Shown in pieces: positions 5,981-54,773 of a stretch of 54,782 nucleotides of DNA. The position numbers and the translations under genes are program-made. The stretch is from Sulfuricurvum sp. (GTDB lineage: Bacteria > Campylobacterota > Campylobacteria > Campylobacterales > Sulfurimonadaceae). The stretch covers positions 1 through 54,782 of the forward strand of contig QKCD01000131.1 of NCBI GenBank assembly GCA_003245815.1, given 5' to 3'. Every line of letters starts with the position of its first letter. Position 1 is the first letter of the stretch. The notes beneath the pieces are model-generated. The model was not told the origin of the DNA, searched no databases, and saw only the letters and a program-made list of their open reading frames with translations.

Positions 5981-6060
5981 GGCGCTCGCGGCACCATCCA
6001 TCATAAGAATTACAAATACTGCCATTGTGGATTTCCAGAAACTTTTCAGACGCGTTGAAG

Positions 6061-6066
6061 TACAAT
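6061..6066 (+). promoter_or_regulatory. Likely -10 element for the GGDEF gene at 6099
   Basis: TACAAT lies 32 bp before the ATG at 6099, with AAGGGGAG as the ribosome site between them. Confidence 0.4.
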
Positions 6067-6098
6067 AGGGCAATCTGCCGTGAGAAGGGGAGTGACCC

Positions 6099-7010
6099 AT
6101 GATCTCGATGTTTGACCCCAATCAGCTGCGCGCGGTCCTCTCCGCACTGCCCGACCCGCTCTTCGTACTGACGGAGAGCGGGCGCTATGCGGCGATGCTG
6201 GGGGGCGGGGACGAACGCTATTACCATGACGGTTCGGGGCTTGTCGGCAAAAACCTCCGTGACGTCCTCCCTCCGGAGAAGGCGGAGTGGGTCCTGAAGC
6301 AGATTGCGCAGGTGCTGAAAGAGGGCAATATTTCGACGGTGGAATACGGCCTCAGCGGGGCCGATGTCGAGGGGCTCGACGAACTGCAGGGACCCGGCGG
6401 CACGCTCTGGTTCGAAGGACGCATGCAGCCCCTGCCGTTTCTTGTCGAGGGGGAACGGGCCATCGTATGGGTGGCGCGGAACATCACCCGCAGCCACGAA
6501 CTCGAGGAGGAGCTGCGCCGGCTCAGCGAGATCGACGAACTGACCGGGGCGATGAACCGGCGGAAGATGATCGAGGAGCTCGACGCGCGTTTTGCGGAGT
6601 TCCGCCGTTACGGGCTGCCGACGGCGCTACTCATCTTTGACGTCGACCATTTCAAGCATGTCAACGACCGTTTCGGCCATATCGCGGGCGACCAGGTGCT
6701 GCGGGAGACGTCGAAGCTCTGCATGGCGCAGCTGCGCAGCGTCGACCTTTTCTACCGTTTCGGCGGGGAGGAGTTCGTCGTTTTGCTGCCCAATACCGAC
6801 GCGGAGCATGGGTGTGCGACGGCGGAACGGCTGCGCCAGGCGGTGGCCGACAACCGTGTCACCCTGGGCGATCACGCTACGGGGGTGACGATCAGCATCG
6901 GGGTCAGTGACTTCCGGGCGGAAGACGAAGGGGGCGAGGCGGTGATCCGGCGTGCCGACGACGCTCTTTACCGGGCGAAACGGGAGGGACGAAACCGCGT
7001 CGTCTGCTGA
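6099..7010 (+). CDS. Diguanylate cyclase with an N-terminal PAS-like domain
   Basis: 303 residues, no membrane segment. Residues about 10-130 look like a PAS sensor (SALPDPLFVLTESGRYAAML, ending VARNITRSHELEEEL), followed by a GGDEF domain from about 142. The active-site loop is GGEEF (222-226), a permitted variant of GGDEF, and RSVD at 213-216, five residues earlier, is an inhibitory c-di-GMP binding site (I-site). LIFDVDHFKHVND and DELTGAMNRR are the usual GGDEF signatures. It should make c-di-GMP from two GTP under feedback control. The input ligand is unknown. It converges on the PhzF-like gene. Confidence 0.88.
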   Translation: MISMFDPNQLRAVLSALPDPLFVLTESGRYAAMLGGGDERYYHDGSGLVGKNLRDVLPPEKAEWVLKQIAQVLKEGNISTVEYGLSGADVEGLDELQGPGGTLWFEGRMQPLPFLVEGERAIVWVARNITRSHELEEELRRLSEIDELTGAMNRRKMIEELDARFAEFRRYGLPTALLIFDVDHFKHVNDRFGHIAGDQVLRETSKLCMAQLRSVDLFYRFGGEEFVVLLPNTDAEHGCATAERLRQAVADNRVTLGDHATGVTISIGVSDFRAEDEGGEAVIRRADDALYRAKREGRNRVVC

Positions 7011-45248: not shown

Positions 45249-45303
45249 ATCATTCTCATTTAATTGTATTTTCCACCCCTTTCAACTATCATTACGGCGG
45301 TAC

Positions 45304-45727
45304 ACAGGCGATAGCTTGGCAGCAATGCCAAGAGGAAAGTCCGGGCTGCCGTAAGACAGGGTTCCATCTAACGGATGGCCGGCGCAAGTCGAGGGACAGT
45401 GCAACAGAAAGTAAACCGCCACCGCTAGAACGATGTCGGATGACGGCTGTTGGATTTTTGATGAAAAGACCAGCAGGCGTCATCCCCGAAACATCGACGC
45501 AGGGCAGGGCATGGAAGCATGACGCCGGAGCCGAAAGCTCCGGTGTGCTTCAGTGGCCACGCGCAGCGGAGGGGGTAGGGGCTTGGCTCCTGCCCCCGTT
45601 CAAAAGGTGGTAAGGGTGAAACGGCGGGGTAAGAGCCCACCAGTGCTTTGAGTAATCATCGCAGCTATGTAAACCCAACCCGGCAGCAAGAAACAGATGG
45701 TTAGCGTCTTACACAGCTATTGTTTCG
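45304..45727 (+). ncRNA. rnpB: RNase P RNA (rnpB), bacterial A type
   Basis: The conserved P4 and nearby blocks are present: GAGGAAAGTCCGGGCT at about 45332, GACAGTGCAACAGAAAGTAAACCGCC at about 45396-45421, and near the 3' end GGTGAAACGGCGGGGTAAGAGCCCACCAG and GTAAACCCAACCCGG. The ends pair as P1: CGATAGCT (45309-45316) with AGCTATTG (45715-45722). Ends are accurate to several bases only. It is the catalytic RNA that trims tRNA 5' ends. Confidence 0.95.
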
Positions 45728-45816
45728 CTAGAACTATATAGTAATATATAGAGTAGATTAATTGTCGCTCAAACAGAACCCGGCTTACGTGTACCGCTTT
45801 TTACCCGCTCCTCTAC

Positions 45817-47513: not shown

Positions 47514-49532
47514 ATGAGCGGAAATGACGGGCTGAACCGGATCGCTTTCTTTCTGAAGCGCCACGAAGAGAAAATCGTCCTGCTCTGGCTGCACGAACCC
47601 TCTTTGGTGGAGATTTTCAAAACCCATCACATCAGCAGACAAAAGTTCAAACCGAAATTCGGTCTGGGCATTATCGGGTACTTTATCGACGTTTTGCAGG
47701 GGACTCAGAAAGTGGGAGAGTGTCCGATGATGAACCGTTTCATTGACTATATGCTGCATAAGCAGATCACTGTCAGCGAAGTGTTCCTTATCTGCGTTGC
47801 ATTGCACCGTACGCTTCAGCGCTATCTTTACAGCAGCGGCATTGTGAATGTTGACCATCCGGAGGGGATCGCCCTCTCGGGTGTTTTCGACCAAAATCTC
47901 AGCGGCGTACTCTCCTACTTCATCCGGAAAAGCGGCGGTGTACCCTCGCAGGGCGAACAGCTCAGCGACACCCTCAAAAGCCTGCAGATTCTGGCCAACC
48001 AGCAGGAGTCACTCATCGTCACGCTGAAAGACGGTGCACTCTTTCTGGCCAACACCGCTTTTTTACGTTTCGCCGGTGTTGCAGGGGTGGGTGAACTCTC
48101 CGAAAGGCACCGGACACTCTGGGAGATTGTCGCGAGTGTCACGCAGGAGCCGGAGCTGTTCAACGCGAAAGATTATGAAGGATGGATTACGCAGGTCACC
48201 GACAGAGACCACGCGAGCATCTATGCTTTCCTGATCGCCCCCGACAGCGGGGAGAGCCTGCGCTACAGGGTACGCGTCAATACGATGCCCTGTGCCGTCG
48301 ACGACGGCTCCCGCTACCATGTCATTACCCTGACCCGTGAAGCCCTGACCTTCGATGCTTTGGATTACCAGGATTACGACCTGCTGACCCGGGTCTACAC
48401 CCGCGAACGCTTTGACCGGTTCCTCTCGGAGTATACGCATAAACACCCGGGAACCTTCTGTGTGCTCGCTGCCAGGATCCAGGATCTCGAACAGATCTGC
48501 GGGCTTTACGGGGCTGAGATGGGTGATGTCGTTTTGCAGGAGTTCGCGGCACAGACCCAGCACGATTTCGGCGACAGCGGCCACGTCGCACGATTTGCCG
48601 ACAACACTTTCACGATTATCTTCCCGGGAACGACGCCGGCGCAGGCCCACTCCTATGCCGAAAAGGCTTTGGAGATCGCCTCGAAAATTGTCTACGACGA
48701 GACGATAGGGCGCTATCCCGTTTTGAAAATCGCCATCGGCAACAGCCATCCCGGCGATACCGAGGCGACTCTGGTGGCACGGCTTGAAACGCTTCTGGAA
48801 GAGCTCGAAGCGGAAAAAATGCAGGTCATGGACGATGCCACCCTCTTTAAAAACGAGCAGAAGCGCCAGGAGGCGGAAGCGGCGTTTTTCGAAAGGGCGC
48901 TAGAATGGAAAGCGCTGGGGAGCAGGGTGCCCGTTATTGTCTACTACAAAGAGGTGCCTGTCGAATCCGACTCACAGGTCCTGTCGGTCTCAAAAGACGC
49001 CATCGTCCTCTCCGTACGACGCGTCGCTGCCTATGCGGCCGGAGTCTACCGCACGGCCTTTATCCGGCTGAGCAACGATGAGCAGAACATCGCCGCCACG
49101 GTCCGGGAGACCGATCCCCACAGACAGACGATAGAACTGACACGTATCACGCCGGTCGCCACCTCTCCGATGGACCGCCAGAGCGTCAACGTGATGCTTA
49201 AAACGCCGTTGCCTGCCAAGCTCTTTTACGTGAACGCCATCTTGCGGGGGGAACTCCACAGCATGTCCATCAACACGACGCATCTGGAGCTGCAAAACAT
49301 CGATGGTCTCGCGCCGGGGAGTCGCGTCACCCTGGAAACCGAACTGCCGATGGAGCAGGGTGCCCAACGTTTCAGGACCGAAAGCGATATTCTGAAGATC
49401 CGGCACCGCGGGCACCATCGGTATGAGCTCGTGCTCCGTTTTGCCAAGCAGGACGAGGAGCTGATCCGCGCCTTCGTCTCCCATCGGCAGCTCGAAATCG
49501 TCAAGGAGCTTCAGACCCTCTCCCACGGTTGA
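47514..49532 (+). CDS. Protein with degenerate GGDEF and PilZ-like regions
   Basis: 672 residues. Residues about 1-140 are a helical region with conserved-looking aromatic positions, followed by a PAS-like stretch (about 150-270). A GGDEF-fold domain follows (YDLLTRVYTRERFDRF), but the active loop reads FADNTF and no catalytic acids remain. After residue ~460 come a PilZN-like strand region (VPVIVYYKEVPVESDSQVLSVS) and, from about 553, a PilZ-like barrel in which the RxxxR and DxSxxG positions are replaced (DRQSVN, SMSINTTHLEL). It may no longer bind c-di-GMP and may act as a protein-binding effector. AAGGAG precedes the ATG. It abuts the convergent tetR-like gene with no gap. Confidence 0.7.
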   Translation: MSGNDGLNRIAFFLKRHEEKIVLLWLHEPSLVEIFKTHHISRQKFKPKFGLGIIGYFIDVLQGTQKVGECPMMNRFIDYMLHKQITVSEVFLICVALHRTLQRYLYSSGIVNVDHPEGIALSGVFDQNLSGVLSYFIRKSGGVPSQGEQLSDTLKSLQILANQQESLIVTLKDGALFLANTAFLRFAGVAGVGELSERHRTLWEIVASVTQEPELFNAKDYEGWITQVTDRDHASIYAFLIAPDSGESLRYRVRVNTMPCAVDDGSRYHVITLTREALTFDALDYQDYDLLTRVYTRERFDRFLSEYTHKHPGTFCVLAARIQDLEQICGLYGAEMGDVVLQEFAAQTQHDFGDSGHVARFADNTFTIIFPGTTPAQAHSYAEKALEIASKIVYDETIGRYPVLKIAIGNSHPGDTEATLVARLETLLEELEAEKMQVMDDATLFKNEQKRQEAEAAFFERALEWKALGSRVPVIVYYKEVPVESDSQVLSVSKDAIVLSVRRVAAYAAGVYRTAFIRLSNDEQNIAATVRETDPHRQTIELTRITPVATSPMDRQSVNVMLKTPLPAKLFYVNAILRGELHSMSINTTHLELQNIDGLAPGSRVTLETELPMEQGAQRFRTESDILKIRHRGHHRYELVLRFAKQDEELIRAFVSHRQLEIVKELQTLSHG

Positions 49533-50159
49533 TCAGGCTGCGATCCGCTCCCAGAAAAAGTCAACATGCTTCTCAAACTGCGTGGAAAGCGTCGTTGTCG
49601 GATGGCCGTCGATACGCAGCAGGGTCACTTGCAGCCGCAGGTAGAATAGGGGGGCGAGGAACTCCTGGGCCATCAGCATCGGATCGGAAAAGCCGATCAA
49701 CCCCTCCTGCATCATCACGAAAAAGGCTTCCGAAAGCAGCTTGACGTTGCGCTCGTGGTATTCGGCCATGAAGTTCTCACGCAACTGCTTGTTCTGCAGC
49801 AGTTCGATCATCAGAATCCGGAAAAGCCGCTCCTTGTTTTTGTCAAAGGTCACGAGCTTGTACTGTACGATGAAGTTCGAGAGAAACCGTTTGCCGCCCT
49901 TCGCGCGTTCGGCCACGGTCGTCTTCTCATCGGCAGAGAAGGGCGTGGAAAAAATCGTCGATGCCACGCTGTAGAAGATCTCCTCCTTGTTGGCAAAATG
50001 GTTGTACAACGCACTCTCTCTGATGCCGACTTTTCCCGCAATTTTACGTACCGAAGCCCCCTTGTAGCCCAGTTCCGAAAAAAGCTCGGTCGCGGCTTTC
50101 GTTATCAGCTCCTTGGTTTTTGCACCCTGCGTCAACTCCCTGTTTTCAGGCATTTGCAC
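49533..50159 (-). CDS. TetR/AcrR-family transcriptional regulator
   Basis: 208 residues. The N-terminal helix-turn-helix (about 13-62: TKELITKAATELFSELGYKGASVRKIAGKVGIRESALYNHFANKEEIF) is classic TetR; the rest is a helical ligand domain with no recognised ligand. The gene is preceded by four copies of a 16-bp palindrome at regular spacing, which are its probable operators and make autoregulation likely. Its stop is adjacent to that of the convergent gene. Confidence 0.9.
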   Translation of the reverse strand: MQMPENRELTQGAKTKELITKAATELFSELGYKGASVRKIAGKVGIRESALYNHFANKEEIFYSVASTIFSTPFSADEKTTVAERAKGGKRFLSNFIVQYKLVTFDKNKERLFRILMIELLQNKQLRENFMAEYHERNVKLLSEAFFVMMQEGLIGFSDPMLMAQEFLAPLFYLRLQVTLLRIDGHPTTTLSTQFEKHVDFFWERIAA

Positions 50160-50165
50160 CCCTTT

Positions 50166-50278
50166 ATGAACAACTGTTAATGATTGGAATAACTATATAT
50201 GAACACCTGTTAATATTGGCTTAAATACATATGAACAGATGTTCATCTTGATAAGCCAACAAAAGAACAGTTGTTCAT
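50166..50278. promoter_or_regulatory. Array of four helically phased palindromic operators upstream of the TetR gene
   Basis: ATGAACAACTGTTAAT at 50166-50181, ATGAACACCTGTTAAT at 50199-50214, ATGAACAGATGTTCAT at 50231-50246 and AAGAACAGTTGTTCAT at 50263-50278. The starts are 33, 32 and 32 bp apart, about three helical turns, so all sites face one side of the DNA. The third copy is a perfect palindrome with 7-bp arms; the others have one mismatch. The first begins 6 bp before the regulator's start. Confidence 0.75.
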
Positions 50279-50659
50279 ATTCCTGAGACGCTCCGTTTCA
50301 TGCCGGAATAAGTAGGGGAACTGCACCAGAGAGGGGATTAAATCGCCATGGCTATGTGGCAAAAAAATTTCGCCATTGGTGCTGCATGGATCGTGATTTG
50401 CTGCGGGAAAAGATGCTTTCAACGTCGAATTCATAGTTCATAATATAAAACTAATGGGTGTTCATACGGAAAGCATCGGCCGTCGTTATCGCGCAAAAGG
50501 AGCATGATTTCAGTTTGGAGGCATCCTGGGCCGTTCGCGGATGCAATGGTCATCCGCCGTTATTTGACACGCATCAGCCATAATAGGGGATCTCGTAAGC
50601 AAGTTATTATTTTAAATAGAATCTACATTATGTTAACCATAATATTATTCAAGCCCTTA
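50279..50659. other. Gap without a supportable gene between the operator array and the amine-oxidase-like gene
   Basis: About 380 bp of AT-richer sequence. Two further half-site-like GTTCATA copies lie at 50436-50442 and 50460-50466. An ATG at 50504 has AAAAGGAGC before it, but its frame soon runs antisense into the flavoprotein gene and looks non-coding. No domain is recognised. Confidence 0.4.
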
Positions 50660-53803: not shown

Positions 53804-54010
53804 ATGGAAGAACATAAACGTCAGCTTATCCAGGACATCGAATCGTTGCTCAACAGCTATGAGGGCGGCTCCGTCACCCACATCAACCCAGAGATGCTCG
53901 CTTTTATGGACGAATCAACCCTCAAGGGGATCATCGACGCCCTCCTCCGACAGAAGGAGCAGACCGTCGCCTCGAACCACGAATGGCTCGAGCAGTTCAA
54001 AAAATATTGA
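53804..54010 (+). CDS. Small hypothetical protein (68 residues)
   Basis: 68 residues, acidic and largely helical: MEEHKRQLIQDIESLLNSYEGG, then a segment INPEMLAFMDESTLKGIIDALLRQKE and an aromatic basic end FKKY. No signal, membrane segment or known domain. It has the look of a real small protein, with balanced composition and repeated amphipathic helices. A TACCATTGCACC stretch precedes the ATG, without a good ribosome site. Confidence 0.6.
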   Translation: MEEHKRQLIQDIESLLNSYEGGSVTHINPEMLAFMDESTLKGIIDALLRQKEQTVASNHEWLEQFKKY

Positions 54011-54221: not shown

Positions 54222-54773
54222 ATGTCATCGAACATCGATTTGGTCCAATTGACGGAGCAGACAAAAAAACTCACGGCCATGGTCGTAGAAGATGAAGGCG
54301 TTGCGAACGAACTCCTCAGTTCCACATTCAGCAACTTCTTCAGTGAAGTCACCTCTGCATTCAATGGGGAAGAGGCACTGAAGCTGTACGAGCAGAAAAA
54401 ACCGGACATCGTATTCGTCGACATCATTATGCCGATGATGGACGGTATCGAGCTCTCACGCCGCATCCGCGAGATCAATCCGAACCAGATCATCATCGTC
54501 ATCTCGGCGAGCAATGATATCCAGAAGATTTCGGAATCGATCGAAATCGGCGTCAACAGCTTTATCCAGAAACCGATTGATACGAAAAAGATCATTGAGC
54601 TGCTGACCAACGTCACTGCCATGATTTCCAAGAAGAAGAAGGTCGAAACGAAAACCTTCTCCATCTCTCTGCCGCTCGACCTGTACGAACTGGTGGATGA
54701 GAACGCCAAAGCGGAGAGTATCTCCAAGAATGCCGTAATCATCCGCGCCCTGCGCGATTTCTACGGAGAATAA
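54222..54773 (+). CDS. Response regulator with a ribbon-helix-helix output domain
   Basis: 183 residues. A complete receiver domain (about 15-132) has the acidic pair VVEDE, phospho-acceptor D67 in VFVDIIMP, a serine switch in VISAS and lysine 117 in QKP. After a lysine-rich linker (about 137-143) the C-terminal 40 residues, KTFSISLPLDLYELVDENAKAESISKNAVIIRALRDF, have the pattern of a ribbon-helix-helix DNA-binding domain (CopG/Arc type): a strand, then two helices with a conserved turn. Such an output is uncommon in response regulators. AAAGGAAAACA precedes the ATG. No histidine kinase is in view. Confidence 0.85.
   Translation: MSSNIDLVQLTEQTKKLTAMVVEDEGVANELLSSTFSNFFSEVTSAFNGEEALKLYEQKKPDIVFVDIIMPMMDGIELSRRIREINPNQIIIVISASNDIQKISESIEIGVNSFIQKPIDTKKIIELLTNVTAMISKKKKVETKTFSISLPLDLYELVDENAKAESISKNAVIIRALRDFYGE

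Follow-up and report, generated by a model that had tools for sequence, protein, structure and literature searches.

A phased TetR operator array held beside dif in Campylobacterota suggests a terminus-binding protein

The locus described here, found in a window of 54,782 nt (the whole stretch of DNA analysed), is best read as a dif-anchored, self-repressing module of the TetR family that may build a complex at the replication terminus, a reading to which we assign a probability of roughly 0.55. The array of four operators of 14-16 bp, the TetR gene that it precedes and dif, at which chromosome dimers are resolved in the terminus region, are kept together across at least five families, and the link between dif and the array is present with both XerCD/dif and XerH/difH. 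The novelty lies in the type of locus, with a TetR operator array maintained next to dif; the fold of the protein is of a known kind. The anatomy of array and gene, and their conservation, are firmly established; a function at the terminus or at dif is the reading best supported by the dif linkage, and the array at the side of dif suggests a previously undescribed terminus-binding protein.

The operator array and the tetR promoter

Four 16-bp palindromes, read from the sequence and by pattern search and given no strand, stand before the TetR gene: the gene-proximal operator 1 (ATGAACAACTGTTAAT, 50166-50181), operator 2 (ATGAACACCTGTTAAT, 50199-50214), operator 3 (ATGAACAGATGTTCAT, 50231-50246) and the outer operator 4 (AAGAACAGTTGTTCAT, 50263-50278). 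Their start-to-start intervals are 33, 32 and 32 bp, and the first-pass annotation, which had described palindromes starting at 50166, 50199, 50231 and 50263 as a phased array in front of a TetR gene, was exact in both positions and spacing. Operator 3 has symmetric arms and is a perfect palindrome except for the two central bases, and operator 4 is one base off the consensus given in that annotation. The operators may resemble the site of the acyl-CoA regulator DesT.

The array is not due to chance. In the 54,782 nt of the window, the palindrome pattern with up to three mismatches gave 17 matches against 5.75 +/- 2.87 expected, a number reached by 0 of 100 shuffles. The strict degenerate pattern AWKAACRNNYGTTMWT occurs at seven places in the whole assembly, four of which are the array, and its reversed control at none. 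An Rfam search of the operator region returned only chance-level matches.

The TetR-family gene is located at 49533..50153 on the minus strand, as indicated by the Pfam TetR_N domain and by its orthologs. Its reading frame is open from a GTG at 50159 (minus strand), and the start codon is likely the ATG at 50151-50153, taking into account the ribosome-binding site AAAGGGG read from the sequence (50159..50165, minus strand) and the alignment of starts. A 672-aa GGDEF-domain protein is encoded convergently with tetR at 47514-49529 (+).

Between operators 2 and 1 lies a putative -10 element of tetR, TATAGT (50192..50197, minus strand), which is absent from the list of a generic promoter scan; most of the relatives shown carry a TATAAT-like sequence in the same place. 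The TTTAAG element at 50220..50225 (minus strand), which is like a Campylobacter-type -35 region, would serve as such, and TTAAG or TAAG recurs at this position in relatives. In most of the family f1 relatives shown, the TATAAT-like sequence begins two bases past operator 2, with operator 1 between it and the start codon, and in family f4 the gene-proximal operator is placed between TTGAC and TATAAT. Since the operators flank or overlap the -10 region, their occupation should block tetR's own promoter, and autorepression is very likely; this promoter anatomy backs the autoregulation put forward in the first-pass annotation.

Conservation of the array and its helical phase

TetR orthologs were found in 134 of the family's 228 genomes and, in a sample of 397 genomes from the whole class, in 71; a protein missing from so many relatives is not essential in general. 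The exact core AACRnnYGTT was counted in 101 upstream regions, made up of the window, 80 loci of the family and 20 others that belong mostly to different families; it was present four times in 80 regions, three times in 14 and twice in 5, with one region holding five copies and another none. All 277 core spacings are 22, 31-33, 42-43 or 63-64 bp, each at most 1 bp from a multiple of 10.5 (R=0.954), these counts and R being descriptive because the loci are all related and some genomes are present in both collections. Independent evidence comes from a small number of jumps between lineages, each by whole turns. The spacing largely follows lineage, at two, three or four helical turns: it is 22 bp throughout the f8 genomes G252 and G259 and 42-43 bp in f4, and about 32 bp is the value for part of f8 and for the majority of both f1 and f11. 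That four sites and their helical phase are kept while the spacing varies is expected if the dimers must share one face of the DNA. Binding on the same face, and hence plausibly cooperative binding, as suggested at first pass, is favoured by the fact that spacing changes between lineages only by whole turns. The filament-like binding and the graded switch also suggested there would be further possibilities.

Two variants of the locus were observed. In L050-L056, a fifth, weaker operator, conserved in genera g4 and g14, appears about 138 bp beyond the array and about 255-284 bp before tetR. In L121, the TetR ortholog (6001-6585) has no array, and none was found when its genome, G573, was searched; dif is on the same contig as this gene, about 67 kb off by coordinates, and the locus seems to have been rearranged.

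The TetR protein

The N-terminal helix-turn-helix is recognised by PF00440 (TetR_N, 4.8e-13, 49.1 bits versus a cut-off of 24), and the C-terminal domain is all-helical in a predicted structure of moderate confidence (pLDDT 69.5). A fold search with this model retrieved only generic TetR structures, from which no ligand class could be read. In an alignment of 34 members, which left out two loci with stop codons, the proteins are 57-74% identical to that of the window and 49 columns are invariant, many of them in the C-terminal domain and including the protein end, FEKHVDFFW.

Among NCBIfam models, RefZ matches the window protein best, with 51.2 bits versus a curated cut-off of 180. This model matches 34 of the 34 members far under its cut-off, as many as are matched by the FadR, MtrR and ScbR models, and the match does not mean RefZ membership. 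The SlmA model gave 26.2 bits, under the curated cut-off of 120, and matched weakly in 13 of the 34 members. The gene tree tracks family lines, which fits vertical inheritance. An origin in mobile elements was rejected in view of this tree and of the identity to plasmid and phage TetR proteins, in all cases <30%.

Linkage to dif and to the replication terminus

The dif of the window, of the XerCD type (TTTAAATAGAATCTACATTATGTTAACC, 50611..50638, plus strand), is intergenic, lies 332 bp from operator 4 and is identical at 26 of 28 positions to the published dif of S. denitrificans; besides one chance match with four mismatches, it is the sole near-match in the window. The position of dif and array at the terminus was determined in relatives with complete genomes only. 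In 8 of 8 complete genomes (four genera), the GC-skew change point falls 0.5-41 kb from the array, the locus being far from mid-contig in three of them. In all of these eight genomes, a scan of 190-380 kb around each array (1.95 Mb in total, at most two mismatches) found a sole dif or difH match, 0.5-5.2 kb from the array.

The side is also conserved: dif or difH occurs on the array side in 64 of the 80 loci with more than 1.3 kb of upstream sequence and on the opposite side of tetR in none of 94, and 73 of 74 matches are oriented as usual for their type. The distance from dif to the array ranges from about 45 bp to several kb, with some loci at 10-15 kb or with dif not found; in L090, L097 and L113, matching contig numbers and coordinates put dif about 10-15 kb farther along the contig that carries the array. 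On the contigs of L090 and L097, the array side bears a pair of dif-like sequences separated by about 10 kb, an arrangement that looks like an element integrated at dif.

Published dif positions agree with this linkage. In the 2,201,561-bp genome of S. denitrificans, dif has been placed at 1,122,264 (PMC2731167), at a distance of about 0.9 kb from the array in G091, which we infer to be this organism. The same study located dif at 1,186,929 in a genome of 2,562,277 bp (PMC2731167), which we equate by inference with G471, in which the start of dif precedes tetR by 799 bp. The difH sequence of Nitratiruptor SB155-2 (PMC3325230) was found beside the array of G259, presumably the same strain.

Among the genes lying up to 3-4 kb from the locus, that of the TetR alone was found in families f1, f4, f8, f11 and f12, and xerH was found in two families; this comparison left out the window itself, whose family was represented by other genera. 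Fifteen genomes of the same family that lack the TetR gave 17 dif-like matches, several of them at contig ends or with one mismatch; none had an array in the flanks examined, indicating that gene and array are absent together. Two further genes of the window, encoding a small conserved 68-aa protein (53804-54010, plus strand) and a response regulator (54222-54773, plus strand), have relatives that likewise adjoin dif elsewhere in the family, in other genera.

Regulator or terminus-binding protein

The main rival reading is that of an ordinary ligand-sensing TetR with an unusually large autoregulatory operator, whose proximity to dif would reflect inherited gene order and whose other targets would have weaker or different sites. 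We consider it less likely than the terminus reading, but still alive: the fold and the autoregulatory promoter anatomy are those of such a regulator, and a wider synteny (rnpB, oor, sucCD) is also conserved within Sulfurimonas. However, a TetR gene is the sole neighbour of dif common to the five families, the link holds whether the site is dif or difH and also where insertions separate it from the array, and no conserved second target was found.

This last point comes from several searches. The genome-wide search for the 16-bp consensus, proposed at first pass as a way to find other targets, yielded seven strict places and no conserved further target. A two-site pattern searched in 21 genomes matches the array before tetR in nearly all of them, with isolated pairs as the other matches; it had no match in G219 and G226, where the arrays are too degenerate for the first half of the pattern. 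No second array conserved before another gene was found in genome-wide searches. Strict single sites elsewhere in ten genomes fall nearly all within coding sequence, and the few intergenic ones outside the array do not recur; two intergenic or near-intergenic sites are left in the window's genome (C15:147 and C92:58331), and their recurrence was not seen in relatives. A TetR regulon was rejected on the basis of these mostly intragenic and non-recurrent sites, in searches by pattern that may overlook weak regulon sites. As no other conserved target was seen, the main job of this TetR would not be to run a regulon; that it is instead a terminus complex at dif has, judged from sequence, an even chance or somewhat better.

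The array could also act as a Xer accessory sequence, with TetR wrapping the DNA beside dif and controlling synapsis or its direction, in the manner of ArgR and PepA at the cer sites of plasmids. The operators are helically phased, and in Hydrogenimonas, two f8 genomes and genus g11 only 66-70 bp separate the start of dif or difH from that of the outer operator, a distance shared by both recombination systems. Nevertheless, such a role seems improbable, since the distance grows to hundreds or thousands of bp in most of f1, where RNase P RNA lies between, and chromosomal dif normally relies on FtsK (PMC3325230).

It is very improbable that the array serves a divergent neighbour, either the RNase P RNA or a lipoprotein gene. 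In Sulfurimonas, rnpB is situated between array and dif and begins about 46 bp past the outer operator, and in genus g14 a fifth, weaker site is close to a divergent lipoprotein gene. However, the array keeps its form, and stays with tetR, where rnpB lies elsewhere, as in the window (45296-45802, plus strand; RF00010, 236 bits), or where other genes are divergent, and control of rnpB as its main role was rejected. The lipoprotein gene was likewise rejected as target, as it follows rnpB in L051 and a 110-aa query, run without a positive control, did not detect it in the genome of the window. The RNase P RNA of the window, of about 500 nt, is longer than those of most Sulfurimonas relatives (about 320-360 nt).

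Finally, a replication fork barrier similar to Tus/Ter or RTP/Ter, whose genes also adjoin their own sites in the terminus, might account for the terminus position and for gene, sites and autoregulation being together, but it is hardly credible for palindromic TetR sites without evident polarity that form one array per genome in the searches made.

Proposed function and its relevance

Given that the association of array and gene with dif extends over several families and two Xer systems, autoregulation alone probably does not account for the locus. We propose that the four palindromes are very likely bound by TetR dimers aligned on one DNA face and that this occupancy of the promoter very likely keeps TetR synthesis low. 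The bound protein would assemble a nucleoprotein complex at dif, serving to mark or organise the terminus of replication, and its level would be set by the occupancy of this same dif-side complex. The complex could have a role in the handling of sister termini or in contacts with the divisome or FtsK/Xer. In its broadest form, the proposal is that XerCD/dif and XerH/difH families of Campylobacterota share a dedicated TetR-type terminus-binding protein, with four same-face dimers beside dif and a self-set level, devoted to segregation, dimer resolution or division and not to a metabolic regulon; to this we give an even chance.

We know of no described terminus-organising protein in Campylobacterota, and a literature search of incomplete coverage found none. 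If true, the proposal would open a way into the completion of replication, the resolution of dimers and the placement of division in these bacteria, and would provide a case of the TetR fold acting as a marker of a chromosomal site. Moreover, the changes between two, three and four turns with four sites kept amount to a natural experiment on same-face binding.

Comparison with known systems

TetR autoregulators of the QacR or IcaR kind place several dimers on their own promoter, usually at one or two operators. The protein described here shares their fold and, by prediction, the several dimers on its own promoter, whereas theirs is usually a system of one or two operators and a regulated target gene, with no link to dif. 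SlmA, involved in nucleoid occlusion, is also a TetR-family protein with chromosomal sites; these are many and scattered away from the terminus, in contrast to the one array at dif, and the match to its model is weak and restricted to 13 of 34 members. In Tus/TerB and RTP/TerI-II, the gene of a terminus protein stands beside its own sites and is self-regulated, as would be the case here, although those proteins have other folds and polar sites, a polarity not seen in this array.

MatP is not a TetR-family protein and acts through many matS sites spread over a large region. PMC7394560 describes it as a protein bound to the terminus region that affects terminus segregation. On that description, the likeness to MatP/matS of the enterobacterial Ter macrodomain would be a protein at the terminus region, here by proposal; the locus differs in its TetR fold, in the single array found in the searches made and in having no MatP-like protein. 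RefZ of Bacillus is a TetR-family protein with a few near-palindromic chromosomal sites at conserved positions, and acts on the chromosome or division (PMC6657595). The present protein, whose best NCBIfam match is this model, is likewise of the TetR family with a few putative near-palindromic sites; however, the five RBM sites of RefZ are scattered on the chromosome arms and near oriC, and here the sites are gathered into one phased array by dif.
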